A program made the position numbers and the translations under genes. This document shows, one piece after another, positions 6,070 through 33,824 of a stretch of DNA of 64,000 bases. The DNA comes from a virus. The stretch's first letter is position 1. Each line of letters opens with the position of its first letter. The notes under the pieces are model-generated. The model saw only the letters and a list, made by a program, of their open reading frames with translations, ran no database searches and was not told the DNA's origin. The DNA lies in IMG/VR virus record IMGVR_UViG_3300035180_000402, positions 17,602 through 81,601 of that record. One strand, written 5' to 3'.

Positions 6070-6090
6070 AATTCTATTATTGGAGAGAAA

Positions 6091-8160: not shown

Positions 8161-8198
8161 GATGAATACTATGACGGAGATGTGATAGGAAAACTATT

Positions 8199-9338: not shown

Positions 9339-9356
9339 TTTATGTAGGAGCAAGTT

Positions 9357-10466
9357 ATGTCGCTTTCCTTACCTGTTGTTCTTACTTTTGTTAAGAACAA
9401 GTTAAAAGCTTATTATACTAAAATCCAAATAGATTCTCTTCTTAAACGTACAAAACAGAGTTGTATAGTAGACTTTACTTTACCTGCACATTCTTTTACT
9501 GTAGGTAACTGGGTTATTCAAACATCTAGTGGATTAGAAAAAGGTATAGCTACAGCTCCAGAGACTTCTGATGTTATAGGAGTAATAGTAGCTACAACTT
9601 TAGATACTATTTCAGTGTGCACTTCAGGATATATACAAGAATTAACAGGATTGATTCCAGGCTCAGTGTATTTTTTATCGGACGTTACTCCAGGAGAAAT
9701 GATTATTAATGGTCCAACAGATTTAGATCATGTTAGTAAACCTGTATTTTTAGCAGTGTCTACAACTTCAGGTGTAATTTTAAATCAGAGGGGTATAGTT
9801 TTAACTAACACTGATCTTGATTTAGGAATAAAAATTGCTAAAGACGGAACAGAATTTACTGATACTGTAAAAGTTTTAAATTTTGAAAAAATGTTATGTA
9901 CTGAGACTGATCCTGGAAAATTTACACTATCAGTAGATGATTCTCCATTAGATAAAAAAGAAGATAAAATAAACAAAAACGTAGCAAATGGTTATTTAGG
10001 ACTAGATACTGATGCTAAGGTTCCACCAGATTATTTAAGTAAACTTTTAAATGATTTAGACACAACAGGATCTACTAATAGAGCGTGGAGTTCATCATAT
10101 ACCTTAAGTAGAATAAATAGTCCAAGTTTAAAGAACTATAAAGAAGTTTTAGTAAATTTAGGAAATATATCTGGAAACGTAACGTTAGATCTTACTCAAG
10201 GTAATGTTTTTGTAGCTACACTTACAGGAAACGTGGTATTAAATCTTTCTGGAGCAACTTCTGGCTATGCACATAGTTGTACCTTTATACTGACAAATGA
10301 CTCAGTGGCAAATAGGACATTAAATTTCTCTTCAACAGTAAAATATCAGAAAGGTATTGTACCATCTAGGACACTTACTGCTAATGCTACAGATATATGG
10401 ACATTTTATACTTGGTCTGCAGGAGCTACATGGTTGGCATCTATATCTATTCTGGATTTAAAGTGA
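9357..10466 (+). CDS. Tail fibre protein
   Basis: A 369-residue protein behind AGGAG. Residues 60-150 carry a pattern common in phage fibres: a SGYIQELTGLIPGSVYFLSD stretch followed by SKPVFLAVSTTSGVILNQRG. The last ~100 residues form another common fibre tip pattern (GNVTLDLTQGNVFVATLTGN ... TWLASISILDL), predicted beta-helical. A long polar segment lies between. No chaperone or peptidase motif is visible. The virion fibre role is well supported by these two patterns; the receptor is unknown. Confidence 0.75.
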   Translation: MSLSLPVVLTFVKNKLKAYYTKIQIDSLLKRTKQSCIVDFTLPAHSFTVGNWVIQTSSGLEKGIATAPETSDVIGVIVATTLDTISVCTSGYIQELTGLIPGSVYFLSDVTPGEMIINGPTDLDHVSKPVFLAVSTTSGVILNQRGIVLTNTDLDLGIKIAKDGTEFTDTVKVLNFEKMLCTETDPGKFTLSVDDSPLDKKEDKINKNVANGYLGLDTDAKVPPDYLSKLLNDLDTTGSTNRAWSSSYTLSRINSPSLKNYKEVLVNLGNISGNVTLDLTQGNVFVATLTGNVVLNLSGATSGYAHSCTFILTNDSVANRTLNFSSTVKYQKGIVPSRTLTANATDIWTFYTWSAGATWLASISILDLK

Positions 10467-10473
10467 GATCCTT

Positions 10474-11412
10474 ATGTTCTTTGATAGATTTTTTTGGAGT
10501 TCAAATAGTGCTCCTAGTTATACAATATTAAAAGCAACAAACATAGCTACAACAAGTTGCACTTTATCTTGGAGTGCTGCTACAGATATAAACAATGATC
10601 CTGTTACTTATTTTTTATATAGAGATGATATACTGATAGCCTCAAATTTACAAGTGTTGACTTATTCTGTTACTGGAATGACTCCAGGATCATCTGTTAC
10701 CTTTTCTATTGAAACTTATGATGGAAAAGTATATGGACCAAGAACTTCTATTGTAGTAACTTTCGTAAAAACATGGGCTCAAGTATATGAAAAATGGTAT
10801 AGATTCTCTCATGATACTACAACGAATCAACCTGCCAATGCTTCAGAATTGACTACATGGACATATGATGCCACTGGTGATTATATTCAGAATAACACTA
10901 ATAGCGTTACCTACATTGGATTTATAAGTACTGAATACTACGAAAACTACTATTTTCAGATACAATTAACTGCAAACTCTGATGATGATGACTGTATCTC
11001 TGTAGTTTTAGCTTTTGCAGTAGATGAAAAAGGTTTTGAGCATACACTATCAGCTGTACGATTAAGAAACAATAATCAATTCTATCCAAAATTACAATGG
11101 GCAATTGTTTATGACTATAATAGATCAACTCAAGCATTACTAGCTAATGGTGATAGTAAGATTGCTATTTCTGTTGGTAGTTGGAATACAGTACCTAATG
11201 GAACTACTGTAAGAGTGGAGAGAACTGGTGATATTTTTGTTGCTAAATGCTCACCATTTAATAGTACCGTTGTATCTGATGCTTCAGCTTTAACTATTGA
11301 CTTAAATTCAGATGCAAGATTAGCTGTTTTTAAAGGCCCTCAAAGATATGGAATAGGTTGTTTAAGTCAGCAATATTCTCGTTATTCAAATCTAATTTTT
11401 AATTATAGCTAA
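10474..11412 (+). CDS. Fibronectin III plus beta-sandwich adhesin, copy 1
   Basis: A 312-residue protein. Residues 15-95 form a fibronectin type III-like domain (ATTSCTLSWSAATDINNDPV ... VTGMTPGSSVTFSI). A KTWAQVYEKWYRFSH linker leads to a ~200-residue domain with YIGFISTEYYENYYFQIQL and DDDDCISVVLAFAVDEKG, which looks like a concanavalin-like beta-sandwich (inference). The gene after the next one encodes a clear paralogue with the same layout. Probable receptor-contact or decoration protein of the tail. Confidence 0.6.
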   Translation: MFFDRFFWSSNSAPSYTILKATNIATTSCTLSWSAATDINNDPVTYFLYRDDILIASNLQVLTYSVTGMTPGSSVTFSIETYDGKVYGPRTSIVVTFVKTWAQVYEKWYRFSHDTTTNQPANASELTTWTYDATGDYIQNNTNSVTYIGFISTEYYENYYFQIQLTANSDDDDCISVVLAFAVDEKGFEHTLSAVRLRNNNQFYPKLQWAIVYDYNRSTQALLANGDSKIAISVGSWNTVPNGTTVRVERTGDIFVAKCSPFNSTVVSDASALTIDLNSDARLAVFKGPQRYGIGCLSQQYSRYSNLIFNYS

Positions 11413-11423
11413 CTGGAGACATT

Positions 11424-12902
11424 ATGTCTAAACCAAGTACAATAATTTTATCTTCTTACTTTGCAAATTCAGGAGTAGATTCGAATTTAGTTTGGAAGAA
11501 TCCTATTAGTAATAGAGGTCTATCAGACATAGATGCTTTAACTTTGACTTTTTTAAATCCAGTAGATGGAACTACTTCTTCTATTATAGAAACTGGAAAA
11601 ATATATAGATATAGTTCTGTGTCTTCTACTTGGATAGACATTTCTAGCTCACATGGATTTTCTGGACATGAAATAATTGATGCCAAGACAAATTGTACTT
11701 TAAAACTAAACAGAGGACTAGATGCAGATAAACCTGTAACACTAGAGGAAGGTGAGCCATATTTCTCTTTAGATACAAATGCTTTATACATAGGAAATTC
11801 TGCTAAAAATTTAATTGAGATAAAAGATATTTATTTACAGAGTACAGAACCTATAAATAAGAATAAGTTATGGCTAGATCCAATACTTGGAACTTTTTAT
11901 TTTTATGATTTTTCTGATTCTACTTGGAAAGATATTATACATTCAAAATTAGGTTCTTCTGATATAACTGCACTACTTTCACAAAAAGCAGATAAAGCAA
12001 CTACCTTATCTGGTTATGCTATTACAGATGCTTATACTAAGTCAGAAGTTAATTCAAGCCTGGACTTAAAATTTGATAAAACTGGTGGTAAAATATCAGG
12101 AGCAGTTGAATTAGGATCATATCTTTTTAGAACTACTCAAGATGGTACTTCATATTTTATGCAGCAAGATGGCACAGGTAACTTACACTGGTATTGGAAT
12201 ACTATTGGTGGTACTTCTCCAGTTTTTGAAAGATCCAATACTGGTGCCTCTGATATAATGCAAGATATAACATCTAATGGATTAGCATACTTTAAGTATA
12301 GATACTCTGATGGTTCAACTAAGTCGGCTGGTGATTCAATAAAATGGACTGATATACTTTACGCTGATTCAAATAATGTCTTTAAGTTTTTAGATAAGGA
12401 TGTTTGGCACAAAGGCAATTTAGAATCTGCTTATACTAAGGCAGAGACTGATACACTACTATTAGAAAAAGAAAATAAATTACCTACTCCTACAAGTATA
12501 AGTCTTATACAAAAAAGTCCTGAAGGTGTTTACTCATTTGCTAAATATCCAAAAGAGTCTTTTGGTATAGCCTTGAGTGATGAAGTTACACCTTTAGTAG
12601 CAGGATCGAATAAACTTATTTTTAGGATGCCGTATGCTTTTAATCTATTAGAAATAAGAGCATCAGTAAGTTATGAGTCCACTTCTGGAAATATAACCCT
12701 AGATATAAAACATAATGGAGTAAGCGTAACAAATTCTTATGTAGTAATAGACGCAGGGTCTAAGACTAGTTTAAATTCTAGTAGTAGCTTTGTTATAACA
12801 ACTACCAGTCTATTAGATGACTCTGAGATAACTATAGACTTAGTTTCAGCAGGTACGAATAGTACAGGACTCAAATTATGGTTAATAGGTAGACAGCTAT
12901 GA
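11424..12902 (+). CDS. Tail fibre protein with YTKSE/YTKAE repeats
   Basis: A 492-residue protein behind GGAG. Near residues 95-130, LKLNRGLDADKPVTLEEGEP followed by YFSLDTNALYIGN matches the N-terminal attachment pattern of many phage fibres (Mtd_N-like). YTKSEVNSSLDLKFDKTGG and YTKAETDTLL are classical short fibre repeats. The last ~110 residues (GIALSDEVTPLVAGSNKLIF to the LIGRQL end) form a C-terminal domain often found on fibre tips. It lies between two copies of the FN3-type adhesin and overlaps the second by ATGA. Function: host recognition (family knowledge). Confidence 0.8.
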   Translation: MSKPSTIILSSYFANSGVDSNLVWKNPISNRGLSDIDALTLTFLNPVDGTTSSIIETGKIYRYSSVSSTWIDISSSHGFSGHEIIDAKTNCTLKLNRGLDADKPVTLEEGEPYFSLDTNALYIGNSAKNLIEIKDIYLQSTEPINKNKLWLDPILGTFYFYDFSDSTWKDIIHSKLGSSDITALLSQKADKATTLSGYAITDAYTKSEVNSSLDLKFDKTGGKISGAVELGSYLFRTTQDGTSYFMQQDGTGNLHWYWNTIGGTSPVFERSNTGASDIMQDITSNGLAYFKYRYSDGSTKSAGDSIKWTDILYADSNNVFKFLDKDVWHKGNLESAYTKAETDTLLLEKENKLPTPTSISLIQKSPEGVYSFAKYPKESFGIALSDEVTPLVAGSNKLIFRMPYAFNLLEIRASVSYESTSGNITLDIKHNGVSVTNSYVVIDAGSKTSLNSSSSFVITTTSLLDDSEITIDLVSAGTNSTGLKLWLIGRQL

Positions 12903-13831
12903 GTTTTATTTTAAATCCTTATACTTTTCAAACCGTGGCTCCTGAACCTTATTTAGTTTTAGATGTAACCAATATTACAGATGTTAGTTGTACTTTAAAT
13001 TTTAACTTATACAATTTTTCTTCTCCTGTAACTTATACAATTTTAAGAGGCTCTGAAATATTAGCTCAAAATTATTCAGGAACATCGTTTAATGTAACGG
13101 AAAGCACTGCAGGATTAACTGTAAATTATACTATAGTGGCGTATAGTGGCTCCTTAGAAAAAGCTACAACAAATAAAACTGTATCGTATGTTAAGACATG
13201 GGCTCAAGTATTTAATGACTGGAGAAGATTCTCTCATAATACTACTACTGAAAATCAACCTGCTAGTGCTACAGAAATATCTAGTTGGACCTATTCTTCT
13301 TCTACTAATAGTTTAAGTTGTCCAATTAATAGTTTAACTTATCTAGGATTAGTAAGCAATGAATTATATACTTCTTATATACATAAAGCCCGGCTTACTT
13401 CTACAGCTTCCGATGATGACTTAATAGGTGTTATTATATCTTTTGCTGTAGACGGAAACGGAAGAGAGCATACATTATCTGCAGTCAGGACAAGAGGAGG
13501 TTTACAACCACGATGGGGTATTTATAAAAACTATAGAAGATCAGATCAGATACTTCTTATTGATGGCAACTCTAAAATAACTTCTCAGACTGGAGGATGG
13601 AATGCAGTATCTACAGGTACTACGGTTAAAATAACGAAGACAGACAATCTTATTGATGCACGTTGTTCTGTCTTTAATAGTACTTCTGTGCTATCTAGCT
13701 CCTCATTATTGCTAGACTTGTCTGCGGATCCAAACTTGTCTATTTTTAGGCAACCATGTGCATATGGATATTCTGTATTTTCACAACCTAATACTACATA
13801 CTCTAATATAGTTTTCTCTTATTCAGAATAA
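12899..13831 (+). CDS. Fibronectin III plus beta-sandwich adhesin, copy 2
   Basis: A 310-residue paralogue of the gene two places upstream. It keeps the FN3-like N-domain (TDVSCTLNF), the KTWAQVFNDWRRFSHN linker and the C-domain (DDDLIGVIISFAVDGNGREH, EHTLSAVRTR). Sequence divergence is substantial, so the duplication is old or diversifying. Its ATG overlaps the TGA of the fibre gene, indicating coupled translation. The role as a fibre-tip partner is inferred. Confidence 0.6.
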   Translation: MSFILNPYTFQTVAPEPYLVLDVTNITDVSCTLNFNLYNFSSPVTYTILRGSEILAQNYSGTSFNVTESTAGLTVNYTIVAYSGSLEKATTNKTVSYVKTWAQVFNDWRRFSHNTTTENQPASATEISSWTYSSSTNSLSCPINSLTYLGLVSNELYTSYIHKARLTSTASDDDLIGVIISFAVDGNGREHTLSAVRTRGGLQPRWGIYKNYRRSDQILLIDGNSKITSQTGGWNAVSTGTTVKITKTDNLIDARCSVFNSTSVLSSSSLLLDLSADPNLSIFRQPCAYGYSVFSQPNTTYSNIVFSYSE

Positions 13832-21713: not shown

Positions 21714-24278
21714 ATGGCTACAATGCAAATAACTAAAGTCGGTTATGAGCAAATAACCGATGCACTACAAAGTGGTTATACTTTAAAGATTACTAAAGTT
21801 AAATTTGGTACTGGATCAGATTATGTTCCAACAGCAGGAGATGTTGAACTTCATGGTCATATTCTATATGAAGGCCCAATTAGTAATGTGGATGTAGTAA
21901 ATGATGATATAATTGATTTTCTTTGTATTTGCCCTGAGAACTTAGGTGTAGACACAGTCACTATTGGTGAAGTTGGATTATATATAGAAAATACTGATGG
22001 AACCGATACTCTATTTGCATTAGCTTGTTATCCTTATCCTTTCAGTAAAGCACCAAATATGCGGTATAAAACACACTGCTTAGTTTTGAATCCATATATA
22101 AGCAATGCAGTAGATTTAACTTTAACTTGGACTATGAGTTTACCACGAGTTAATTATTATGGAGATTTACCTAATCCGGAAAGAACTGGAGATAATGCTT
22201 ATATAGTAAACCACGGATTTACAGATAGTGGTGTTTTAAAACCTTCTTTAGTTACACGATACGCAATGTCTGATACAGGCCCACTAGCGTGGGGGCTCTT
22301 AAATGGAGATTTATATTATGATGGCTATGTTACTCCAGTTGAAGGGGATCCAGCCAGTTTTAAATTAGCTGGTTTACCATTGTCTAACTTTCCTGCCATA
22401 AATATTAAATTTGCTTTTGTTTATGTTTGTGAAGGTACAGGAAGAACTCAGTGTAGAGCATTATCTTATAATGCATCACTAGATTGCTTTACTACTTTGT
22501 ATGAAGACTTTTCCTTAACTGTTAAGGGATCTGGAACTCCTTCCTATGAAGGAGCTTGTAATACAGGTAACACTGCAGGTACTGTGTTGCATATAACTAA
22601 TCTAGATTCAAGCTCAAGAGTATTGATTTGGACAGCGGTAAGGATGGAAGCTACTGGTCTTGTTTTTAGAGGTCGTTGGGATGCAGCAGCAGGATATCCA
22701 TCTAGTCCTATTCCAGGATCATACTGGGTAGTATCTGGTAATGGTATTATAAATGGAACCTGTTATCAAGTTGGAGACTGGATGGTATTTTCTGGTGATG
22801 AACAGTGGGATAAGATTGATAACACTGAACTACCTTACTTACTATATCGTGGTGATTGGGATGCTTCTACCGGTCAAGCTCCACCGCCACAACCAATACA
22901 ATATTATTGGCAGAATATTCGTCAAGGACATTATTGGGTAATAAGTACTGCTGGAGTTATAGCAGGAGTATGGTTTGATGTTGATGATTGGATAGTATGG
23001 AATGGAACAAAGTGGCAAAAAGTAGATAATAAAGGTGGTCTAAAATTTAGAGGGTATCATGCTATAGTATCTGATAATCATGTGCCTACTGTTTTAACTG
23101 ATGGTGACTATTGGATTGTGTCCCAAAAAGGAACTATTAATGGTATTCGTTATGATGTTAAAGATATCCTAGTATGGACAGGTTCAACCTTTATGCGGTT
23201 GATAAATCAAGAAGGCTTAGTTTATCAAGGTCTTTATGACCCAAGCATAACTGGTGAATATCCAGTGCCTTTCAAATCTGGTGATCTTTGGATTGTTAAA
23301 AAGAATGGTGAAGTAACTAATCAAGATGATCCTACAGTTAAAGATAACTTATATGTAGATGATTTTTTAGTAGCTATTCCAACTACTAGTACTACTTTTA
23401 CCTGTGATACTAATAGTAATAGTACCATTTTAAATACTACTGGTAATATGCGTTGGAAAGTAATTTCAGCAGGAGGATTAACCTATCGTGGTACTCATGA
23501 TGCATCTACTGGTATTATGCCAATTCCCCTGCATAAAGGAGACTATTGGGTTATTACTAATCCAGGTTATTTAAATGGTGTATATTATGAAACAAATGAT
23601 TGGATTACATTTAATGGATCTTCTTTTAATAAAGTTAGTAATAGAGAAGGTCTTAAATATCAAGGACTGTGGGAAATTGGTACCAACGGATCTGTACCTC
23701 CAACTCATCCAGTAGAAGGTGACTTTTGGATTGTTAGCTCTCCTGGATCTGTACAAGGCACTGGATATAGTATAGGTGATTGGTTAGTTTGGACAAATTC
23801 TGGATGGACTAACGTTGATAATAGACCTGGATTCTATTATAGAGGAGACTGGAATCCAACTTCAGGAACAAATCCAGTTGCATTAAAAGAAGGCGATTTG
23901 TATCGTATTAACGCTGCTGGTACATTCAATGGCGAGCATGTAGCTCCTGGAGACTTCATTGTTTGGACAACAGCAGGATGGCTCCTGATCTTAGGAACTC
24001 TTGACCGTATAGATATTCCTAGATATAACATAACCACTAATGATTACATGCTCCGTGAGTATGAATATGCAGATGCTTCTACTGGTAAAGTATATAACTC
24101 AGCTAAAAACCTTAAGATAGGATTTGCATTAGAGATTTTATTTAAAGATAGAACTAATCCAGTGTATGTACCATATCTTGAACAATTGAACGAATTAGAG
24201 TTTTGTGGTTGTACTTGTACTTGTACTTGCCAATGTACGGCACCTTGTAACTGTTGTAAAGGCGCAGGTCCAGTTTAA
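21714..24278 (+). CDS. Tail-collar fibre with repeated modules and a Cys-rich tail
   Basis: An 854-residue protein with a strong AGGAGG site. Residues 1-150 match phage tail-collar fibre N-termini (QITKVGYEQITDALQSGYTL, IGEVGLYIENTDG), which dock fibres on the baseplate. From about residue 313 come six to seven modules of ~60-75 residues: a LxYRGxWDAxxG start, then GDYWVVSxxGxINGxxYxVG and DWxVWNGxxWxKVDN. The last 24 residues hold nine cysteines in the order CGCTCTCTCQCTAPCNCC. Alternating CxC is unusual for a fibre and suggests metal binding or modification. One gene separates it from four radical-SAM genes. Confidence 0.8.
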   Translation: MATMQITKVGYEQITDALQSGYTLKITKVKFGTGSDYVPTAGDVELHGHILYEGPISNVDVVNDDIIDFLCICPENLGVDTVTIGEVGLYIENTDGTDTLFALACYPYPFSKAPNMRYKTHCLVLNPYISNAVDLTLTWTMSLPRVNYYGDLPNPERTGDNAYIVNHGFTDSGVLKPSLVTRYAMSDTGPLAWGLLNGDLYYDGYVTPVEGDPASFKLAGLPLSNFPAINIKFAFVYVCEGTGRTQCRALSYNASLDCFTTLYEDFSLTVKGSGTPSYEGACNTGNTAGTVLHITNLDSSSRVLIWTAVRMEATGLVFRGRWDAAAGYPSSPIPGSYWVVSGNGIINGTCYQVGDWMVFSGDEQWDKIDNTELPYLLYRGDWDASTGQAPPPQPIQYYWQNIRQGHYWVISTAGVIAGVWFDVDDWIVWNGTKWQKVDNKGGLKFRGYHAIVSDNHVPTVLTDGDYWIVSQKGTINGIRYDVKDILVWTGSTFMRLINQEGLVYQGLYDPSITGEYPVPFKSGDLWIVKKNGEVTNQDDPTVKDNLYVDDFLVAIPTTSTTFTCDTNSNSTILNTTGNMRWKVISAGGLTYRGTHDASTGIMPIPLHKGDYWVITNPGYLNGVYYETNDWITFNGSSFNKVSNREGLKYQGLWEIGTNGSVPPTHPVEGDFWIVSSPGSVQGTGYSIGDWLVWTNSGWTNVDNRPGFYYRGDWNPTSGTNPVALKEGDLYRINAAGTFNGEHVAPGDFIVWTTAGWLLILGTLDRIDIPRYNITTNDYMLREYEYADASTGKVYNSAKNLKIGFALEILFKDRTNPVYVPYLEQLNELEFCGCTCTCTCQCTAPCNCCKGAGPV
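22650..24000 (+). repeat. Coding tandem modules of the collar fibre
   Basis: Six to seven diverged in-frame modules, each encoding G(L/F)xYRG ... GDxWxV ... NGxxY ... DWxVW. They are recognisable in protein but too diverged to align as simple DNA repeats. One module, around 23,290-23,450, has a longer Ser/Thr-rich insertion. Confidence 0.7.
24204..24260 (+). other. Cysteine-rich C-terminal tail of the collar fibre
   Basis: Cysteines are at residues 831, 833, 835, 837, 839, 841, 845, 847 and 848 of 854. The DNA contains three perfect TGTACT hexamers from 24210 to 24227, encoding Cys-Thr units, so the stretch may have grown by slippage. Alternating CxC cysteines followed by a Gly-rich end are unlike the rest of the protein. 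Confidence 0.8.
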
Positions 24279-24295: not shown

Positions 24296-25033
24296 ATGTC
24301 AAGAGTATATTTTTGTGTTAAAAACAGTTATTCTTCTACCACTCCTAAACCTGCGAATATTACGTCTGTAGGAGATGTAACTATAACAGTATCTAATTCA
24401 AACATAATAATAAATCAACCCGATGTTCTTATAGACTCAGATAGAGATATACATTTAATAGTTGCTTCAGATTTTACATTTAATACTCCTGGTCTAGTTC
24501 AGACTTCGCATGTTTTTGGTTCAAAGGATTATTTTGATAAAGTACAGGTTTATTATTATAATAATACCTATTTCTATTATTTTGAAAGTGTAGAACATTA
24601 CTGTGCCGTATATGAGCGTCACTTTTCTACAGTTTATTTTAGACATGATCCTACTAAAATATTCTGTGAAGTAACATCTAATGCGATAGCTATTCAAGGA
24701 GCAGGTAAATTTGTTTTTCTAATCAGAGGTCTTTTTGTTTCAGAAAATGTAGTTACCTTGAAAATGCAAGATGAAGAAAAAACTGAAATACCAATATCTT
24801 TAATATCAGATAGTAATACACAAACTACGTTAAACTCTATAAATACTTCTTTCAATACGTTAGAAAATGGTACTATAGTAGATTCCTTTATTCAAAGTCG
24901 TGGATTCTTTTTAGAGCTAGACCCCGATGTTTTAAAAGGTGAAGGTTATCTAATAATAGAGAATGAATTACCTACAAGTTTTGCAATAACCGGTGTATCT
25001 AAGACTAGAAGTAAAATGATGTTCTTTATTTAA
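24296..25033 (+). CDS. Unknown virion-type protein between the fibre and radical-SAM genes
   Basis: A 245-residue protein behind GAGG. I do not recognise it. It is mostly beta-prone, with alternating polar/hydrophobic stretches (VTITVSNSNIIINQPDVLID) and a Tyr-rich part (VQVYYYNNTYFYYFESVEHY). No signal peptide or membrane segment is seen. Cysteines are few. It could be a second fibre tip, or a partner or substrate of the radical-SAM enzymes that start 34 bases later. Confidence 0.55.
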   Translation: MSRVYFCVKNSYSSTTPKPANITSVGDVTITVSNSNIIINQPDVLIDSDRDIHLIVASDFTFNTPGLVQTSHVFGSKDYFDKVQVYYYNNTYFYYFESVEHYCAVYERHFSTVYFRHDPTKIFCEVTSNAIAIQGAGKFVFLIRGLFVSENVVTLKMQDEEKTEIPISLISDSNTQTTLNSINTSFNTLENGTIVDSFIQSRGFFLELDPDVLKGEGYLIIENELPTSFAITGVSKTRSKMMFFI

Positions 25034-25067: not shown

Positions 25068-26432
25068 ATGATAACTAAACATGATTTAGAAGATGATATT
25101 TTAACCTTTTCTAAAGATAGGTCTTTTAGGTATTTTAAAACAAAAGGCGGATTATTAGTAAAGAGCTTTCTTAATACAAATAGATACTATATAGAAAGTG
25201 CTGATGATGATTTACCTATTGCCTCTGTTTGTTTTGGAGAAGAAATATTTACTAATGATGAATTAGATCAACTATATGATATTATAAATCAAGATAAAAA
25301 ACAGTTACGCCAAGATATATTTAGTTTAGGAATATTCAATTCTACCTGTAATGTTAGTTGTGAATATTGTACTAATGGCGATAGAACTAAAATGCTCCAG
25401 AAGCTACCAAGTATAGAACAACTACAAGAGGTCTTTAATACTTATAACATCAAATATGTAAGTGTAGCTGGAGGAGAACCATTAGTAGAATGGCCCCAAC
25501 TAAAAAATATTCTGACATTTTTAGATGAACAACCTGGTATAAAAACAATGGAAATCTTATCAAATGGAAGATTACTTAAGCCTGAGATACTTGAGTTTAT
25601 ATCTAGTTTAACACGAGACGTTAAGTTATTTTTAACTGTTACTACAAAAGAAGACTCAAAAGATCACATGAATATACAAGAGCTTTATGAGTTATATCCG
25701 AAGTTGGTAGGACACCCTGTTGAAATAAATATTGTTATAGACCACTATAAATTTGATGTAGATAGATTTTTATCTTTAATTGTAGAAATGGTTAAAAAAG
25801 GAAATTTTGGAGTAACCTTAAATGCAATACGCAGAGAAGACGCAACAGAAGAAGGACTATTGCAATTAATAAATAATGTAAAAGCAATGATCCGAAGTCC
25901 TCATATTCGTGATTTGTCTTGCCCCGAAGACGATAATCCAACAACACCTTTTTATTATGCAACCGGAAGTTGTAGTAGTGGGATGATTTGTGCTTCATCT
26001 AAAGGTTATTCCTTTTGTTTGGCCTCTATGCCACAATATATAGAACAAACTGTAGAAGGTGTAAAGAATATAAGATATATGCAGTCTAAGCATGGATGTG
26101 AATCTTGTGATGCTTATTTTGATGATGTCTTATGTAAGAATAATATTTTCTCTGGTAGTTGTTATAAACTAGAAAGATTCAACTGTTTAACTTGTCCTAA
26201 TTTATGCCAATGCCAATATCAGAAGTGTTATTATCTTTCAGTGAAAAAAATAACAAATCCAGTTGCAGATTATAATAGAGACTTAAGATGTATAGCTTAT
26301 GTTTTAATTTTCAATCTTATTGACTATATAAAACATCAACATATAGATTATTCTGATAGTAATAGTGTGTATAAAATAGACTCAAATAAAATACCGGAGA
26401 AATTAGTAAATGAATATTTTTCTACTAAATAA
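25068..26432 (+). CDS. Radical-SAM enzyme with a Cys-rich C-terminal (SPASM-like) domain
   Basis: A 454-residue protein behind AAGGA. The cluster motif is C94-NVS-C98-EY-C101 (CX3CX2C) and the SAM-binding loop is VAGGEP (135-138). The first ~85 residues form a separate N-domain that could bind a peptide (inference). The C-terminal part has many cysteines (344, 347, 356, 365, 373, 376, 380, 382, 387), enough for one or two auxiliary Fe-S clusters as in SPASM/twitch maturases. Such enzymes usually modify peptides or proteins. It overlaps the next radical-SAM gene by 23 bases. The substrate is unknown. Confidence 0.85.
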   Translation: MITKHDLEDDILTFSKDRSFRYFKTKGGLLVKSFLNTNRYYIESADDDLPIASVCFGEEIFTNDELDQLYDIINQDKKQLRQDIFSLGIFNSTCNVSCEYCTNGDRTKMLQKLPSIEQLQEVFNTYNIKYVSVAGGEPLVEWPQLKNILTFLDEQPGIKTMEILSNGRLLKPEILEFISSLTRDVKLFLTVTTKEDSKDHMNIQELYELYPKLVGHPVEINIVIDHYKFDVDRFLSLIVEMVKKGNFGVTLNAIRREDATEEGLLQLINNVKAMIRSPHIRDLSCPEDDNPTTPFYYATGSCSSGMICASSKGYSFCLASMPQYIEQTVEGVKNIRYMQSKHGCESCDAYFDDVLCKNNIFSGSCYKLERFNCLTCPNLCQCQYQKCYYLSVKKITNPVADYNRDLRCIAYVLIFNLIDYIKHQHIDYSDSNSVYKIDSNKIPEKLVNEYFSTK

Positions 26433-27528
26433 ACATCACACTTGCTACCTATCAAATTCTGAGTTAAACTTTCTTAGGTTCTGTGCAGAGAAGCTTAAAG
26501 GTCTTGAATATGTAGAACAACCAGAGCTAGCAGATTTAATTGTTTATTCCGGATGTTCTGTTTCTGACGATTATATCATGAGGAATAATAAAGAGCTGGA
26601 TAAACTTATAGCGCTATATCCAGAAAAGAAATTTATGTTATTTGGATGTGCTGCACCTTATGGTGAGCACTCAAATGTAATTAGTATTGTACATCTAGAA
26701 CATTCTAAATTAGATGATCTCTTTAATTTACCTTCTGGTTCAATAAAGCAACTTCACTCTTATTATTTCACCTATGAGAAAATTTTTGAAGATCAGAAAG
26801 CTATTTTTATATCTAGTGGTTGTGCTAGTAATTGTACTTATTGTAATATTAAGTTATCTAGACCTAAATTAAAATCAATGCCTTTAGAAGATATTCTTGA
26901 AAGAGTGAATCAGTTTTATGCAACTAATCATCATTATGTCTTATGCTCAGATGACTGTGGTTCATATGGATTAGATATAGGGACTAATTTTGCAGTTTTA
27001 CTAGAAACTTTAGTTTTAAATTTTCCTGATATACTTATAAATATAAAGTGGGTTAATCCACAATGGTTTATAAAGTATTATGATGTTATAAAGAAATATG
27101 TGGATACAGGTAATGTTATAGGTATAGAATGTCCTATTCAGTCAGGATCAGATAGAATATTAAAGTTAATGAATCGTCCATATACTGTAGAAGAAGTCAT
27201 TGATAAATGGACCAAGATAAAAGGAAAGTTACTATCTTCTAAAGGTACAGTCATAGTAAACTTTCCTGGAGAAACTTGGGAAGAATTTTTAGCTTCTATG
27301 TCTTTACGTAAACATTATGAAATTTTTATAGTATATATTTTCAAACTAAACAAAAATACAGCTAGTGCAAATCTTCCAGATAGACGAACAGAGGAGGATG
27401 CTAAGAGACGACTTGAATATCTAAAAGAACATTATCCAGACATATACTATGGTGGAGATCTTATAGATAATAACTTAGACCGCTGTATAGACAAACCTTA
27501 TATGGTAGATAACTTAGAATATGATTGA
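26410..27528 (+). CDS. Radical-SAM methylthiotransferase-like protein (RimO/MiaB type)
   Basis: 372 residues; the ATG has GGAG upstream inside the previous gene. Three N-domain cysteines (C12, C49, C80) are placed as in the UPF0004 domain. C138-ASN-C142-TY-C145 is the radical-SAM motif, and PIQSGSDRILKLMNRPY (242-258) with NFPGET (284-289) are hallmarks of MiaB/RimO/MtaB. These enzymes attach methylthio groups to tRNA or, for RimO, to an Asp of ribosomal protein S12. The C-terminal TRAM domain is not evident and the protein is ~60 residues shorter than usual. The target could be a phage tail protein or the ribosome; the sequence does not decide. Confidence 0.82.
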   Translation: MNIFLLNKHHTCYLSNSELNFLRFCAEKLKGLEYVEQPELADLIVYSGCSVSDDYIMRNNKELDKLIALYPEKKFMLFGCAAPYGEHSNVISIVHLEHSKLDDLFNLPSGSIKQLHSYYFTYEKIFEDQKAIFISSGCASNCTYCNIKLSRPKLKSMPLEDILERVNQFYATNHHYVLCSDDCGSYGLDIGTNFAVLLETLVLNFPDILINIKWVNPQWFIKYYDVIKKYVDTGNVIGIECPIQSGSDRILKLMNRPYTVEEVIDKWTKIKGKLLSSKGTVIVNFPGETWEEFLASMSLRKHYEIFIVYIFKLNKNTASANLPDRRTEEDAKRRLEYLKEHYPDIYYGGDLIDNNLDRCIDKPYMVDNLEYD

Positions 27529-28741
27529 TACTTTATCCATAAAAATGGTAGATATTCCAGGTGTTCTTGAATATCATTCTTCGACGCATTCTTTCAATTA
27601 TTGTCCTGAAGTTATACAGACTGAAAGAATAAAATTTGAAGATAGAAATGAAATACAACAAGACTTCTCGAAAGAATATCTTAATAAACAAAAAGAAGAA
27701 TCAGATAAAGTACCAATTATAGGTACAGTAACCATTACTAATGAATGTAACATGGGATGTTCTTTTTGTTATGCTCATAAAAATGAGCAACTAGGAAAAA
27801 TAAATTTAGACTATCTTATACGATTAAAGGAAAAGCTTCCTAAAGAATGTTTTGATCATCTTATTTTATCTGGTGGTGAACCATTATTATATTTTGATAC
27901 GGTTAAGTCAGTAAGAAAGTTATACTCAAAGGTTGTAATATATACTAATGGTAGTCTTTTAACAGAAGATATTATTAAATGGTGTATAGATACAAAGACA
28001 TGGTTATACATAACGTTAGATTTTGATATTCCAGATTTTATTGGTCATCACTCTAGTCCTGTAAGAGATTTACTAGAAAAGTACATTTATAAGTATCCTA
28101 AATTGTTAGATATAATATCTTTTGGGACAGTTCTTCCAATAGAAGAACTTATAAATTTGCCTAAGCTTAGGCAACAACAAAAACCTTTTGAGTCAGGTAT
28201 ATGGAGACTATACAATTTTTTAGATCCAAAAGATAAAAATTATGTAGTTAGTTCTGAAGGTTTTGATCTTGAAATGAGTAATATAGAAACTGGTTCTATT
28301 AGTCTTCAAGAATCAATATTTTTTAGATATTTGAACTATGTACAAACAGCTTCTACTAATGAATACAACTATAGTTGTTGTGGAAATTCATTAGCCCTAA
28401 CACCCAGTGGAAACTTAACTATCTGTAATGAGTTATCAAGTTTACCTGAGTCTCGTTTAAAAAATACAAAAGTATGGTCAATAGATTCATTAGATTTAGA
28501 AGAAGTTAAACAAGAACAATTAAGAGTAGGTAAATACGGTATTAAAAGTTTTTGTGGTTCATGTATTATGAAATATTTTTGTTCAGGATTGTGTTGGCAG
28601 AAAAAGGGTAATCTTAAACATCAATGTCAAATGGCACGCTTCGGAATAGCATATAGTATGTATTATAAGTTTAACTATTTGAATACTAATTCAATACTAA
28701 ATCCGAATACAAAGTTATCAGAAATCTTAAGAGATAGGTAA
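27521..28741 (+). CDS. Radical-SAM/SPASM maturase-like enzyme
   Basis: A 406-residue protein; its ATG lies inside the previous gene (8-base overlap). The motif is C76-NMG-C80-SF-C83 and the loop is LSGGEP (118-121). The C-terminal SPASM-like set CGSCIMKYFCSGLCW ... HQC (from 345) should hold auxiliary clusters. The closest relative in the window is the next gene. In known families this layout belongs to peptide or protein maturases such as sulfatase maturases and RiPP enzymes. The ~70-residue N-terminal extension before the barrel is also shared with the next gene. Confidence 0.85.
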   Translation: MIDTLSIKMVDIPGVLEYHSSTHSFNYCPEVIQTERIKFEDRNEIQQDFSKEYLNKQKEESDKVPIIGTVTITNECNMGCSFCYAHKNEQLGKINLDYLIRLKEKLPKECFDHLILSGGEPLLYFDTVKSVRKLYSKVVIYTNGSLLTEDIIKWCIDTKTWLYITLDFDIPDFIGHHSSPVRDLLEKYIYKYPKLLDIISFGTVLPIEELINLPKLRQQQKPFESGIWRLYNFLDPKDKNYVVSSEGFDLEMSNIETGSISLQESIFFRYLNYVQTASTNEYNYSCCGNSLALTPSGNLTICNELSSLPESRLKNTKVWSIDSLDLEEVKQEQLRVGKYGIKSFCGSCIMKYFCSGLCWQKKGNLKHQCQMARFGIAYSMYYKFNYLNTNSILNPNTKLSEILRDR

Positions 28742-28748
28742 TATATTT

Positions 28749-30017
28749 ATGTCTTCATCAAAAATTTTAGTAAATGCTATTGGTATAAAAGATAATTCTA
28801 CGGGATTTGCTATCTTATATGTTCCAGAATTTCATTTATTTTTAAAGTCTGAAATACGTCAAAATAAACCTGTAGAATTTTATACTAATTATTCAATGCC
28901 TGTACTTTGTACTCATCAAAATGAGATATATGAAGAGTACAATAAACTAGAAACTCAGGCAGTAAATAAAATTCCTAACATAGGTTATGTAATAGTTAAT
29001 AATGTCTGTAATATGAATTGTACCTTTTGTTATGCTGCGGCTAATACTAATCATAAAAGAGTAGACATTTCTGATCTAGAGCACCTGTCTAAGATATTGC
29101 CCAAAAATTCGTTTAGAAAAGTAATTATTTCTGGAGGAGAACCTTTATTAGACTTTGATCTTGTAAAACAAATAAGAACATTTTTTGATGAAATGACTAT
29201 AAACTCTAATGGAATGCTTCTTACAGAAGATATAGCTAATTGGTTAGTAGAAACAAAGACAAAAATGTATATCGCCTTAGATTATGAGATTAAAGATTTT
29301 GAAGGACATGACTTTAATGCTAAAGCGCATGTAGAAAGTATAATCGCTAAAGTTCCAGAAGTTCTTCCATTTATAGAAGTCGCTGTAACTTACCCTAGTG
29401 ATAAACTAGATGAGTTAAAAGATATTAGAACTCAAAATCTTCCATTTGAAAAAGAACTGACCCACGATTTTAATTACATTAAAGGAAAGGATCCTTTAGT
29501 TTTAACTAAATCTATATTTGAAAAAGAAATAGAAAGAATAGAAAGAGATGAAATTTCATTACAAGAATCTATCTTTCATAAACCTCTTAAATATATACGA
29601 AATACTTATAACTGGAGACTTAATATAGAGTCATGCTCTCCAGCCGTACATTTAAATCATCTTGGAGATTTACATCTATGTCAGGTTAGAGCCTCCAATA
29701 CAAATAGACCTGAAGAGTATGAGAAAGATGTTATCTGTAAAGCTAAAGATTTTAATTTAGACATATATAGACAAAGATCCAACAAAGATAAAAAGATTGG
29801 AGTTTGCACAATAGATAAAAATTGTAACTGTAGATGGTTTTGTGGAAATATATGTTGGGCTAATATAAAACATAATAAACATAATTGTGAAGTTCTTAAA
29901 TACTCGTTATTCTATTCTATGTATTTAGTTCATAATTATCTTTCTATGGAAGGTTTTAGTTTATTAAATTTAGATAGATTTTTCAATTCAAAACTAAAAG
30001 GATTGAACTATGTCTGA
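28749..30017 (+). CDS. Radical-SAM/SPASM maturase-like enzyme, paralogue of its neighbour
   Basis: A 422-residue protein. The motif is C87-NMN-C91-TF-C94 with ISGGEP (128-132). The SPASM-like end reads NCNCRWFCGNICWANIK ... HNC. Shared with the upstream gene are the N-extension, FCYA after the cluster motif, EISLQESIF and a C-terminal YSMY..(F/H)NYL. The paralogues probably act on related residues or together as a heterodimer (inference). The end overlaps the start of the Ig-repeat gene by eight bases, tying enzyme and virion genes into one translational unit. Confidence 0.85.
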   Translation: MSSSKILVNAIGIKDNSTGFAILYVPEFHLFLKSEIRQNKPVEFYTNYSMPVLCTHQNEIYEEYNKLETQAVNKIPNIGYVIVNNVCNMNCTFCYAAANTNHKRVDISDLEHLSKILPKNSFRKVIISGGEPLLDFDLVKQIRTFFDEMTINSNGMLLTEDIANWLVETKTKMYIALDYEIKDFEGHDFNAKAHVESIIAKVPEVLPFIEVAVTYPSDKLDELKDIRTQNLPFEKELTHDFNYIKGKDPLVLTKSIFEKEIERIERDEISLQESIFHKPLKYIRNTYNWRLNIESCSPAVHLNHLGDLHLCQVRASNTNRPEEYEKDVICKAKDFNLDIYRQRSNKDKKIGVCTIDKNCNCRWFCGNICWANIKHNKHNCEVLKYSLFYSMYLVHNYLSMEGFSLLNLDRFFNSKLKGLNYV

Positions 30018-33000
30018 TATTCGTCCTGTACTAAGTATTTTAGAAAAACCTGAAACCTTAAATAAAAGTAAGCAATGTTCTTTTACCTTTAAGTCATCTA
30101 AACCTTTGAAATATGTCTGGTGTGTTTTGGATAATAATCCAAGTTTTAAACTATATCCATCAAAAGATTATCCAGAAGGTGATATTGCTATTTTATCTTT
30201 AACCTATGATGATTCTGATGATAGAGTTAAACACGAGCTAACAGTTCAAGCAGTAGATACAGATGATAATCTTGAGATATATAAAAATGTAATAGTTTGG
30301 ACTAATGTTTTTATACCTATACAGTCTACATTAGTAGAACATCCTTCTGATCCAGATTTAGACTTAGCAAGTTATTTTCTAATTACTACAAATAAAACTG
30401 TATTGGGAGTAAGATATTCCTTAAATAATAATCCTTATGTTTTTGTCAAACCTTCAGATAGAGTTTCTGATAACAAGACAGTAGATATTTCATTATATGA
30501 TCTTTCTGATAGATCATATACGATAAGATATAAAGCTGTAGATGAATTTGGATTCGAAGAATTAACTGAACATGAATTTACTTGGAATAAAGTAGTACGT
30601 CCTATTACTACAATAGTAAATATATCTGAAACAAACGATCCAAAAGTAATAGAGTTATCTGTAAATAAACAAGTTGCATATATTGAAAGTTATCATTATT
30701 ACGGTGAAGATAAAGAATCTTTTAGCGAAATTTGTTCAGAAGTAAACTCCTCTGGACAAGAAAGATTCTACTTTAGAATACCACAACCTTTTGAAGGTAA
30801 AAATGAAGTACAATTTACAGCTGTAGATACTAAAGGTTACAGAGAATTAGAACCCGTTGTTTATACTTGGTATGAAGATAAAACAGTTTTATATTCTACC
30901 TTTATTGAGACACCAGCAAAAGTATCACAGATTACAGATTCTAAATTTACTATTGTAACTAATAAACCAGTCGATCATATAGAATATACTTTAGACGATC
31001 AACCGGAGAATAAAATATACCCTTGGCCTGAAGATGTAACTAATAAAACGTTCAAGATAACATTTACATCTATGCAAGAAGGGTTTCATAATCTATCTAT
31101 AAGAGCAGTAGATGGGTCTGGATATTTGGAGGATGAGGCACGTGTTTATTCATGGAAAGTAGAAGATCCACCAGTTTCAAATATAATAAAGTACCCAATT
31201 AGTCCTAGTACAGAATCAACTGCTACCTTTAAAATTGTTGCTAACAAACCATTGAGTCATGCATTATACTCGTTGAACGGATCGTCTTGGAAAGTATTTA
31301 ATATAGATCCTAATGACTCAACTAAGACAAGTGCAAGTATAACAATATCTAATTTAAAAAATGGCGATTATACTATACAGATAAAAGCAGTAGATTTATT
31401 TGGAGCTGTGGAGAGAGAATCAACTGAAAAATCTTGGAGTGTAGAAGGTATTGAAGTTGTTTATCCAAATGTAGGATATGGTTCATCTAAAACAATCTTA
31501 CCAGATGGAGTTACAGAAGCATTTAGATTTCACCCATCTCCAGGTGTATATTTTCCAGAGAGCTTACTTGAGTTACCATCTGTTAGATCAATAATATATC
31601 CAGATACATTTATTGTAACATTTCCCGAAAAGTTTTCTAATCAAACTTCAGGAGTATTTACATTTTCATCTACTAGAATTGGAGCAACCTACCAGATTAG
31701 TTTAGATGGTTCTGAGTGGAAAGATGTAGGTAATCTATATAAATTTAATGATCTAGTTTTAGGCTCTCATTTACTTAAAGTTAGATCTATAGATAGAGCT
31801 GGGAATATTGATCCATCACCAGCAGAGTATTCTTGGAGTATAGACACTAAAAAACCAGTTTCTACCTTTGTAGAAACTCCACCTAATATATCTATCTCAC
31901 AGGAAGCATCTATAAGAATAGAGGTAGATAAACCAGTTCAGTACGAGTTGTACTCTTTAGATAATTCTATATGGTTAAAGTCTTATCCTTTAGAGTCAGA
32001 TCCAGATAATAGAACGATATTAGTAGAATTATATAATCTAAATTCTGGACCGCATAATTTTAGAGTAAAGGCTTGTGATATATATGGTAATATAGAAGTA
32101 CCAGAAAAGTATTATAACTGGTTTGTAAATACAGATAGGACTCCACCTGATACTATTATAACTACTATAATTCCTGAATATACTAATAAAGTTAACTGGG
32201 ATATAGACTTTATGTCACCTAAACTTGGTTGCACTTTTGAAGTAGCTTTAGACGTAACATTATCTAATACAGATATACGATATGGTGAATGGGTGTCTGC
32301 GAAAAGTCCTTATATTCTTTCTGATTTAGCTGATGGACATTATGTGATAAAGGTTAGAGCGATTGATCTATTTGGAGATATAGATGTTACACCTGCTCAA
32401 TTAGCTTGGAATATAGATACAGTTCCACCAAAATTATTTTTTGTTACAAAGCCGACAGGACCAAATGGAACATTTGAAGTTGTCTCAAATAAAACAAATT
32501 GCAGCTATCATTTTATTTATAATGATAGTGATACAGAAAACGTAGTATACAGTCCTATCATACCATATAGCAATTTACCTGAAGGAGTTAATATTGTAAA
32601 AATTTATGCTAAAGATATGGCAGGAAATTCTGGAGATGTTATTTCTTATACTTGGACTATTGATTCAGTAACACCTAATACCTTTATTGATACTTATCCA
32701 ATAGATAATAGCTCAAGTGGGCAGTTTACTTATCACGCAGATAAACCTAATTGTGTCTTTGAAGTTACTTTGGACTCAGTTACAAGTTTTAAAGAAAGTC
32801 CTTTTACTTTCACTAATTTATCTTCAGGTTTTCATACCTTTTCAGTTAGAGCAAAGGACTTAAATGGAAATTTTGATGTTAATCCCAAAACATATACTTG
32901 GGAAGTAAAGATTTTAAGTACGATAACTGTTACAGTTTTTAATGCAATTAATGCTAAAGCTATCTCAGGTGCACTTGTATCTATAGACACTGGAGAATCT

Positions 33001-33585
33001 AGTAATACAAATACTTCTGGTGAAGCTAAGTTTACTAGTATAAAGGCAGGACTTAGAACAGTCACAATCGCTAAAGATCAATTTGTTACAGAAACCGTAA
33101 CAGTTACTTTAACTGAAGCTGCGATAGCAATAACTGTTTTATTATCGCCCTCTCTATGGGATGGTGCCTATCGTGCTGTATTACGTTGGGGTTACAAACC
33201 TTCTGACTTAGATATCCATATGTATGTACCATCAGGATCAACTTACATAGACCGTAACTGGGCTAATAAAGGAAGTGAAATTTCCACACCATCTGGATGG
33301 CTAGACATAGATGATACTGATGGTTATGGTCCAGAAACTGTTACTGCTAAAACTCCAAATATAGGTATTTATCAAATATGGGTGTACAATTATTCTCAAA
33401 CACCAGATATAACATCTTCAAATGCTGAAGTTAGTATATACTCAGACCAAGGAAAACAGCGTACTTATAAAGTACCTTTAAACTTAGGTACAGGATATAA
33501 AGCTTGGCATGTATGTGATATCGACTGTGTAAACAAAATTATAACTGATGTAAATTTATTAAGAACAAATCTACCAAATATATAG
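30010..33585 (+). CDS. Giant Ig-repeat virion protein with a DUF2135-like C-terminus
   Basis: A 1191-residue protein. Residues 1-967 hold about ten ~95-residue Ig-like modules, each with a Y.LD...W....P core and a strand like YSWSIDTKKP. A short non-repeat piece lies near 480-535. Residues 968-1045 match a carboxypeptidase-regulatory-like domain (GALVSIDTGESSNTNTSGEA). The C-terminus (LRWGYKPSDLDIHMYVPSG, LDIDDTDGYGPETVT) is a DUF2135/YfaP-like domain. No signal peptide is visible, consistent with assembly into a particle. It is translationally coupled to the radical-SAM genes, so it is itself a possible substrate. Confidence 0.75.
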   Translation: MSDIRPVLSILEKPETLNKSKQCSFTFKSSKPLKYVWCVLDNNPSFKLYPSKDYPEGDIAILSLTYDDSDDRVKHELTVQAVDTDDNLEIYKNVIVWTNVFIPIQSTLVEHPSDPDLDLASYFLITTNKTVLGVRYSLNNNPYVFVKPSDRVSDNKTVDISLYDLSDRSYTIRYKAVDEFGFEELTEHEFTWNKVVRPITTIVNISETNDPKVIELSVNKQVAYIESYHYYGEDKESFSEICSEVNSSGQERFYFRIPQPFEGKNEVQFTAVDTKGYRELEPVVYTWYEDKTVLYSTFIETPAKVSQITDSKFTIVTNKPVDHIEYTLDDQPENKIYPWPEDVTNKTFKITFTSMQEGFHNLSIRAVDGSGYLEDEARVYSWKVEDPPVSNIIKYPISPSTESTATFKIVANKPLSHALYSLNGSSWKVFNIDPNDSTKTSASITISNLKNGDYTIQIKAVDLFGAVERESTEKSWSVEGIEVVYPNVGYGSSKTILPDGVTEAFRFHPSPGVYFPESLLELPSVRSIIYPDTFIVTFPEKFSNQTSGVFTFSSTRIGATYQISLDGSEWKDVGNLYKFNDLVLGSHLLKVRSIDRAGNIDPSPAEYSWSIDTKKPVSTFVETPPNISISQEASIRIEVDKPVQYELYSLDNSIWLKSYPLESDPDNRTILVELYNLNSGPHNFRVKACDIYGNIEVPEKYYNWFVNTDRTPPDTIITTIIPEYTNKVNWDIDFMSPKLGCTFEVALDVTLSNTDIRYGEWVSAKSPYILSDLADGHYVIKVRAIDLFGDIDVTPAQLAWNIDTVPPKLFFVTKPTGPNGTFEVVSNKTNCSYHFIYNDSDTENVVYSPIIPYSNLPEGVNIVKIYAKDMAGNSGDVISYTWTIDSVTPNTFIDTYPIDNSSSGQFTYHADKPNCVFEVTLDSVTSFKESPFTFTNLSSGFHTFSVRAKDLNGNFDVNPKTYTWEVKILSTITVTVFNAINAKAISGALVSIDTGESSNTNTSGEAKFTSIKAGLRTVTIAKDQFVTETVTVTLTEAAIAITVLLSPSLWDGAYRAVLRWGYKPSDLDIHMYVPSGSTYIDRNWANKGSEISTPSGWLDIDDTDGYGPETVTAKTPNIGIYQIWVYNYSQTPDITSSNAEVSIYSDQGKQRTYKVPLNLGTGYKAWHVCDIDCVNKIITDVNLLRTNLPNI

Positions 33586-33605: not shown

Positions 33606-33824
33606 ATGACAACTATTTTAGATCCTTATTACACTTTATTAAGTCAATATTACAATAATTATGATCTATTCATATCTAAGTGTAAAGATAGTGGTTTAAC
33701 AGTCTTAACCATAGTAGAGTTTAAAGATAAAATAAATACTTTATTTCCTAAAACTAGTAACGTTCATAGAACACCTGTTACTCGTTCTCCACGAAGTTGC
33801 TGTGGAGGTGGAGCATCTCGTTGA
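33606..33824 (+). CDS. 72-residue protein ending in SCCGGGASR
   Basis: Small protein behind ACGAGG, 20 bases after the Ig-repeat gene. The N-terminal 50 residues are an ordinary soluble helical segment (LVLTIVEFKDKINTLF-like content); the tail is basic and ends RSPRSCCGGGASR with C65 and C66. A leader-like body plus a short Cys/Gly core resembles the layout of ribosomally made, modified peptides. It could also be a small virion or chaperone protein. I do not recognise a family. Confidence 0.6.
   Translation: MTTILDPYYTLLSQYYNNYDLFISKCKDSGLTVLTIVEFKDKINTLFPKTSNVHRTPVTRSPRSCCGGGASR

Follow-up and report, generated by a model that had tools for sequence, protein, structure and literature searches.

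In this work, four consecutive radical S-adenosylmethionine (rSAM) genes were examined in a 64,000-nucleotide stretch of viral DNA (positions 17,602 to 81,601 of IMG/VR record IMGVR_UViG_3300035180_000402, which has 81,601 bases; hereafter the window). The genes, called A, M, B and C, form an unbroken run at 25068-30017 within the tail operon, and as judged from sequence they probably encode a maturation system of the phage for one of its own virion proteins. Three candidate substrates are encoded nearby, and the proposal as to the substrate is partly supported: the evidence gives strong circumstantial support to the collar fibre, and none that is specific to an immunoglobulin (Ig)-repeat protein or to a 72-residue protein. 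The reading is built on four observations, namely the gene order, the enzyme families, the conservation of a cysteine tail on the fibre together with A-type and B/C-type enzymes in a divergent relative (contig L030), and the recurrent pairing of SPASM-type maturases with cysteine-dense late proteins in unrelated phages. The features concerned are the following.

21714..24278, plus strand: collar/tail fibre of 854 residues, the most likely substrate (PF12571, 22.6 versus 23 bits; PHROG tail-fibre families)
24204..24275, plus strand: nine-cysteine C-terminal tail of the fibre, CGCTCTCTCQCTAPCNCCKGAGPV, the segment proposed to be modified (cysteine conservation with L030; shuffles)
24296..25033, plus strand: protein of 245 residues between fibre and enzymes, role unassigned (family searches)
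25068..26432, plus strand: rSAM enzyme A, 454 residues, with a cysteine-rich C-terminal region (PF04055, 39.8 bits)
26410..27528, plus strand: rSAM enzyme M, 372 residues, with a methylthiotransferase-like core (PF04055, 69.4 bits; TIGR00089)
27521..28741, plus strand: rSAM enzyme B, 406 residues, SPASM-like (PF04055, 49.2 bits)
28749..30017, plus strand: rSAM enzyme C, 422 residues, SPASM-like paralogue of B (PF04055, 45.8 bits)
30010..33585, plus strand: Ig-repeat protein of 1191 residues, link to the enzymes unproven (Y_Y_Y, Ig_J and Big_13 above cut-off)
33606..33824, plus strand: protein of 72 residues with the C-terminus SCCGGGASR, a possible but unproven second substrate (family searches without a match at E < 0.1)

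The rSAM run and the cysteine tail of the collar fibre

A sequence-only reading of the window had described four contiguous, mostly overlapping rSAM genes coupled to the Ig-repeat gene, and the open reading frames (ORFs) bear this out. From the coordinates, A and M overlap by 23 bp, M and B by 8 bp, B and C are separated by 7 bp, and C overlaps the Ig-repeat gene by 8 bp. Upstream of the enzymes lie a baseplate wedge protein (phrog_219, 1.5e-38), a tail protein, the collar fibre and the 245-residue protein, for which the Pfam, NCBIfam and PHROG searches gave no match above cut-off or with E < 0.05; downstream of C come the Ig protein and then the 72-residue protein. The same block is found in two longer assemblies, G001 (170 kb) and G002 (147 kb). 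In G001 the fibre, A, M, B, C and the 72-residue gene are DNA-identical to the window. In G002 the fibre, B and C are DNA-identical, A and the 72-residue protein are identical as proteins, and M differs slightly (100% by tblastn after rounding, yet not letter-identical). A fourth record breaks off within A, after the fibre and 328 residues of that enzyme. Because the block is seen in several records, it is not an artefact of a single assembly.

The fibre ends in FCGCTCTCTCQCTAPCNCCKGAGPV, where nine cysteines fall within 24 residues, as the sequence-only reading had noted; none of 5000 shuffles of the protein reached this. The 72-residue protein ending in SCCGGGASR is likewise present and has a precursor-like shape; the tail proposed as substrate instead belongs to the 854-residue protein. 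The Ig protein has no cysteine cluster (9 cysteines in 1191 residues, at most two per 30 residues), which argues against it as a substrate. The further idea that the enzymes act on virion parts made at the same time gains support for the fibre: its nine-cysteine tail persists alongside enzymes of both the A and the B/C type, and pairings of this kind recur elsewhere. It remains unproven for the Ig and 72-residue proteins, both of which are absent from L030.

A divergent relative keeps the tail and two enzymes

L030, a divergent phage contig of 81.9 kb, was found with a profile of B and C. Its gene order is as in the window (wedge, tail protein, fibre, a 250-residue protein, A' and BC', the last two being the counterparts of the window enzymes), and A' and BC' are the two rSAM matches of the record. 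L030 has neither M nor another B/C enzyme, and neither the Ig protein nor the 72-residue protein. A and A' are 22% identical in the aligned part (E 2e-11) and have ten cysteines in common besides CxxxCxxC; BC' is 33% identical to C and 36% to B (best segment). The 250-residue protein stands at the place of the 245-residue protein of the window, with unconvincing similarity (E 0.029). The two fibres are 45% identical over about the first 480 residues, and their middle parts are not alignable. The L030 fibre tail, FCSCTCTCTCTCPCTCQFYSPHSCCQGMM, nevertheless aligns with nine of the nine tail cysteines of the window, the cysteine codons partly differing (TGT/TGC). Since the tail cysteines align though the fibre middle has diverged, the alignment indicates that the tail has persisted, along with one enzyme of each type (A and B/C), as the surrounding parts of the fibre changed.

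Two alternatives turn on what L030 lacks. The first is a division of labour, in which A and one B/C enzyme would act on the fibre, and M and the other B/C enzyme on the Ig or the 72-residue protein. This would refine the proposed maturation of the fibre and is compatible with it. In its favour, the window has M, an additional B/C copy and the genes of the Ig and 72-residue proteins, none of which occurs in L030, and the overlap of C with the Ig gene points the same way; nevertheless, this refinement is doubtful, as the comparison is a single one in which co-absence may be coincidence, and the scattered cysteines of the Ig protein speak against it. The second is that the 72-residue protein is the precursor (leader plus SCCGGGASR core) of a small peptide like the ribosomally synthesised and post-translationally modified peptides (RiPPs), acting as a toxin, signal or anti-competitor agent, and that the fibre is not the target. 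The protein does resemble a leader with a short Cys/Gly core, precursor and maturase are placed together in RiPP operons, and on another contig, L031, the rSAM enzyme is itself Cys-ended. However, L030 has both enzyme types and the fibre tail without the 72-residue protein, and family searches of the eight genes from the fibre to the 72-residue gene gave no exporter or protease, so a peptide of this kind appears quite improbable.

Families and motifs of the enzymes

All four enzymes contain CxxxCxxC and match PF04055 above its cut-off of 29.5 bits, which places them in the radical SAM superfamily. At the level of subfamilies, the search with hidden Markov models that the sequence-only reading had called for was less conclusive, with A, B and C under all NCBIfam cut-offs and M under that of TIGR00089. 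B and C are tandem paralogues with 35% identity across 345 aligned residues. The seven-cysteine auxiliary clusters of SPASM proteins have the consensus CX9-15GX4C..CX2CX5CX3C..C. The C-terminal cysteines of B (287, 302, 345, 348, 354, 358 and 369) appear to fit this pattern, C departs from it, and the ten conserved C-terminal cysteines of A are spaced differently from it. Among the matches listed, A, B and C are far under the cut-offs of the PapB, SCIFF and CXXX-repeat maturase models, and by these searches they fit no described subfamily. The B/C profile matched 16 solved structures, among them those of the peptide maturases CteB (5wgg), SkfB (6efn) and SuiB (5v1q).

M is closest to the MiaB/RimO family, in agreement with the one RimO/MiaB-like enzyme originally proposed. 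It matches TIGR00089 with 1.5e-43 and 149.2 bits, under the 251-bit cut-off, over residues 28-341 and up to profile position 358 of 429, and its nearest solved structures are TM_1862, RimO and MiaB. The match to PF00919 is weak (22 bits against a cut-off of 27), and no TRAM match was obtained with Pfam up to E = 1. Its cysteines form two triads, 12/49/80 and 138/142/145, as for two Fe-S clusters; the first is presumably the equivalent of the N-terminal triad of RimO. Having both triads but no TRAM match, M would fit a substrate other than tRNA or S12.

Structure predictions for C (with B and BC') and for A (with A') had a mean predicted local distance difference test (pLDDT) score of 42 and 40, respectively, too poor for fold searches. 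The B/C profile yielded no confirmed relative in 80 stretches of bacterial and archaeal genomes, and single-sequence scans of viral contigs with M and C returned only the two near-identical records.

Cysteine-dense proteins beside rSAM genes in unrelated phages

A genome-neighbourhood search had been suggested by the sequence-only reading, and rSAM genes beside tail genes or cysteine-dense genes do recur (L030, L096, L300, L301 and the SPN3US-type phages), the quartet itself being found only in near-identical records. A scan with a profile of enzyme A, in which L295 and L296 were left out of the mapping, returned the block's own copies, L030 and three further contigs with a cysteine block shortly before an rSAM gene. 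In L300 and L297 the block is located within a J-like protein (phrog_31) or at its beginning, and the rSAM gene follows; in L297 this gene is cut by the contig end. In L301 a C-terminal block on an 848-residue protein shortly past the tape measure is followed by a 115-residue Cys protein and then by the rSAM gene. The enzymes of L300 and L301 are PapB-like (223 and 192 bits). A DNA scan for CTCTCTC, with 120 loci analysed, gave two loci with an rSAM gene: L096, which has a Cys tail, and L065, which has no matching Cys ORF. The L096 protein has 191 residues and a (CT)n tail with the C-terminus VCCECECTCTCTCTCTCTCTCTCTEQCCSECDCGD; no Pfam match and no tblastn match in phages were obtained for it. 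A few genes upstream of its gene are those of minor tail proteins and of a central-tail-fibre-J homologue (507 bits). The gene itself overlaps an rSAM gene that matches the PapB model over its full length (208.7 bits, under the 340-bit cut-off). A B12-binding-type rSAM gene comes after the PapB-like gene.

The scan for CSGxCSGxC also covered 120 loci. With a strict criterion for a Cys-repeat ORF, an rSAM gene was found in 6 of 9 loci versus none of the 111 others (p 2e-8), and with a looser criterion in 6 of 35 versus none of 85 (p 4e-4); the strict criterion was drawn up after the first 80 loci had been seen, the looser one earlier. L167 is not independent of the SPN3US-type set, and L189 failed the strict criterion, yet its rSAM gene lies directly upstream of the Cys ORF. 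A control at the level of whole records compared seven candidates with 43 of the 54 loci that had no dense Cys ORF among the first 80. An rSAM match was present in six candidates (L231 had none) versus two controls; two of the six candidate matches and both control matches were under the Pfam cut-off, and the control matches were about 15 kb from the locus. Furthermore, the model of CXXX-repeat maturases, TIGR04115 (cut-off 350 bits), was passed by six of six enzymes adjoining Cys/Gly/Ser repeat proteins, with 434.4 bits in L195, 388.5 in L165, 352.5 in L190, 460.9 in L210, 415.4 in L189 and 503.2 in L214. A tail-fibre gene lies upstream in L165 and an endolysin gene downstream in L210 and L214; in the other contigs no neighbour was identified by a telling match. 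The strict loci without an rSAM gene were L177 and L236, which look spurious, and L255, a short locus. In the CTCTCTC scan L083, L110 and L133 were the only loci to pass the strict criterion; they have no rSAM gene and resemble repeat DNA, and L096 failed it.

The sequence-only reading knew of no described phage with such an arrangement, a claim that does not hold: in Salmonella phage SPN3US and in the phages Phobos, CR5 and Asesino a pair of annotated rSAM genes is found close to genes with a virion annotation, and Aeromonas phage 332-Vera is reported to have rSAM genes in its structural cluster (PMC12390700). In the four loci opened (Phobos, SPN3US, CR5 and Asesino), Cys-repeat ORFs precede the rSAM pair at a distance of one to two genes, and six of these eight ORFs are unannotated. 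In Erwinia phage Phobos there are two such ORFs, each with an N-terminal part of about 45 residues and then CSGTCTGSC-like repeats, and a 69-residue ORF and a 327-residue gene intervene before the rSAM genes. The N-terminal part has matches in 61 phage records (the repeats did not align), and 61 records likewise contain the gp163-type rSAM enzyme at an identity of at least 60%. By genus the two sets have equal counts (34 Erwinia, 22 Salmonella, 2 Cronobacter and 1 each of Enterobacteria, Escherichia and Proteus), compared as totals rather than record by record; those for the enzyme were derived on the assumption that the 21 records under 60% are the 15 from Campylobacter and the 6 without a name. 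Phobos gp163 scores about 114 bits with both PapB and TIGR04115 (113.7 with the latter), under both cut-offs.

Campylobacter phage CPt10 is a weaker case, with gp145 in the tail region 2.3 kb before the rSAM gene gp141. In phage Phass-1 a small Cys-rich ORF comes just after the rSAM gene; the phage has a changed genetic code, and little weight is given to it. As observations on annotation, the Cys-repeat ORFs of Phobos are unannotated (L012, 10001-10807), and the antisense Pro/Gln/Glu-rich gp167 and gp168 are annotated there instead. CPt10 gp145 (L161, 6050-7651) is a hypothetical protein of 534 residues with six CDCNYCT-like repeats (repeat regions x.1-x.6).

Evidence against a maturation role

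On the other hand, a number of results weigh against a maturation system. Pfam SPASM (PF13186) matched none of A, B and C up to E = 1. Of the three SPASM-like enzymes originally described, B appears to merit the name by its cysteine pattern, and C lacks one cysteine of the pattern that is present in B. With the NCBIfam models, A, B and C all stay under the cut-offs and give matches confined to the radical SAM core. The models of MoaA and viperin score on them about as well as those of peptide maturases, and the top-scoring model for BC' is viperin. The solved structures that the B/C profile matched best, 9dfn and 9dfu, are rSAM proteins for which no function is named, and viperins are among the 16. 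Moreover, the direct relative is one phage, so the conserved tail is a single comparison and may be due to chance. In the enzyme-A scan, L298, L299 and L294 showed no Cys-dense protein next to their rSAM genes, and L032-L035 from the B/C-profile scan have rSAM genes and no Cys-repeat protein. In L031 the sole Cys tail is on the rSAM enzyme itself, which ends in SSSSCGGSSSSRC. Pseudomonas phage pPa_SNUABM_DT01, with six rSAM genes close to a spike gene, showed no Cys-repeat ORF over the 20 kb scanned. A sample that started from rSAM genes comprised nine faecal scaffolds named 'Bacteriophage sp.' and marked UNVERIFIED, namely rows H144-H151 and H153 of the listing, with H152 left out. L306 and L311 contain what we take to be the bacterial SCIFF peptide, so these scaffolds are possibly bacterial and were counted neither way; in the other seven no Cys-repeat protein was seen by eye.

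Some of these results would suit an explanation in which the Cys tail is an unmodified tip held by metal or disulphide bonds, comparable to metal-tipped spikes. The rSAM enzymes would then have other targets, for example nucleotides, cofactors or host metabolism, and would lie in the tail operon only incidentally. The near-equal scores of the MoaA and viperin models and the existence of phage rSAM genes without Cys proteins fit it, as do published interpretations of phage rSAM genes, which in the accessible sections are metabolic or concern DNA repair (PMC2853527, PMC8541153). We nevertheless regard it as unlikely, because unrelated phages repeatedly have rSAM genes paired with those of Cys-dense late proteins, there with full-length PapB-type or CXXX-type maturases, and because in the lineage of the window and L030 the tail persists while the remaining fibre changes.

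Proposed maturation of the collar fibre

In the sequence of events that we hypothesize, expression of the late operon yields first the collar fibre and soon after it the enzymes. A and a B/C-type enzyme would then act on the C-terminal Cys tail of the fibre, CGCTCTCTCQCTAPCNCC, where they would most likely form cysteine-sulphur-to-carbon (thioether) cross-links, as is the case with SPASM maturases of the PapB and SCIFF classes. Taken as the specific chemistry on the fibre tail, thioether formation has by this analogy an approximately even chance of being correct. The fibre would thereby end in a stapled tip that resists oxidation and proteases. M and the second B/C copy would be accessory and lineage-specific, and could introduce a further change, for example methylthiolation, on the same tail or on the 72-residue protein. 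The absence of M from L030 and the B12-type enzyme beside the maturase of L096 suggest that both are accessory, exchangeable steps.

More generally, it is conceivable that many phages from unrelated lineages have independently provided their tail proteins with enzyme-stapled Cys tips or needles, RiPP-like segments of the virion formed in place by their own rSAM maturases with interchangeable accessories (a methylthiotransferase here, a B12-type enzyme in L096); we see this proposition as evenly balanced. If it is true, part of the 'CXXX-repeat' maturase family would be a system for viral structural proteins.

Comparison with known systems and significance

Radical SAM maturases are known from peptide antibiotics and cofactors. 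The closest parallels are the maturases of PapB-family ranthipeptides (NF047865) and of SCIFF (TIGR03974), in which a SPASM rSAM enzyme stands beside a Cys-dense substrate; the enzymes of L096, L300 and L301 match PapB over its full length with 192-223 bits. However, these three enzymes are under the 340-bit cut-off, A, B and C match in part only, and the PapB and SCIFF substrates are small peptides, whereas a segment of a large virion protein is proposed here. TIGR04115, a family of radical SAM peptide maturases with CXXX-repeat targets, is passed by six phage enzymes, but the match lists of A and M do not include it, and neither do the best 25 families listed for B and C. The jumbo-phage cassette of the SPN3US/Derbicus/Erskine type likewise has two rSAM genes near virion genes with Cys-repeat proteins before them; there, in contrast, the substrates would be separate small proteins, and the enzymes are not closely related to A, B and C. 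M resembles MiaB/RimO (TIGR00089) in its radical SAM motif and three N-terminal cysteines, and differs in being under the cut-off, in having no TRAM match and in the location of its gene in the tail operon.

In the literature, the accessible sections on Aeromonas phage 332-Vera report eight rSAM genes in the structural cluster, which are termed highly unusual and for which no function or substrate is proposed there (PMC12390700). In Campylobacter phages 11 and 12 rSAM proteins were interpreted as metabolic (PMC2853527, accessible sections), and six phage rSAM genes were assigned to DNA repair and host metabolism (PMC8541153, likewise). Two pelagimyophages differ in the HRC region by rSAM gene cassettes, which are treated alongside tail fibres in the sections available (PMC7029224). 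The accessible sections of these four papers and of PMC3322345, PMC5468394, PMC10783043 and PMC10072058 gave no virion-protein role for phage rSAM enzymes. Among open-licence papers, no report was found of phage rSAM enzymes acting on virion structural proteins, subscription papers and preprints being outside the scope. Thus, rSAM genes among phage structural genes are already in print, and a function for them was not found in print. What the present proposal would add is probably the application of peptide-maturase chemistry to structural proteins of viruses.

It would mean that phage tail tips carry covalent chemistry that has been missed by work based on sequences and structure prediction. 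It would also offer a likely role for rSAM genes that have been puzzling in phages of Salmonella and Erwinia, and perhaps of Campylobacter. The pairing in unrelated viruses suggests that viruses remodel Cys-rich parts of their own tails with enzymes of the peptide-antibiotic type.

Additional observations

The rSAM enzyme of L031 (7923-8864), which ends in SVSSSSCGGSSSSRC, is possibly its own substrate. In L298 seven consecutive genes with an rSAM-like motif, accompanied by no Cys-dense protein, occupy 3414-13457. The six rSAM genes of pPa_SNUABM_DT01 (L302, 2237-12624) adjoin putative 2-oxoglutarate-Fe(II) (2OG-Fe(II)) oxygenase genes, one annotated and one noted as such, and the cluster is perhaps another modification system. 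At 8045-9022 on the minus strand of L018, a locus of G001, there are CGPCGPCGP frames, possibly the antisense of a collagen-like repeat gene. The window holds a fifth rSAM gene at 60765-61748 on the minus strand, far from the tail genes, with a Pfam SPASM match of 5.5e-07, and G002 has a sixth rSAM match at 133309-133716.

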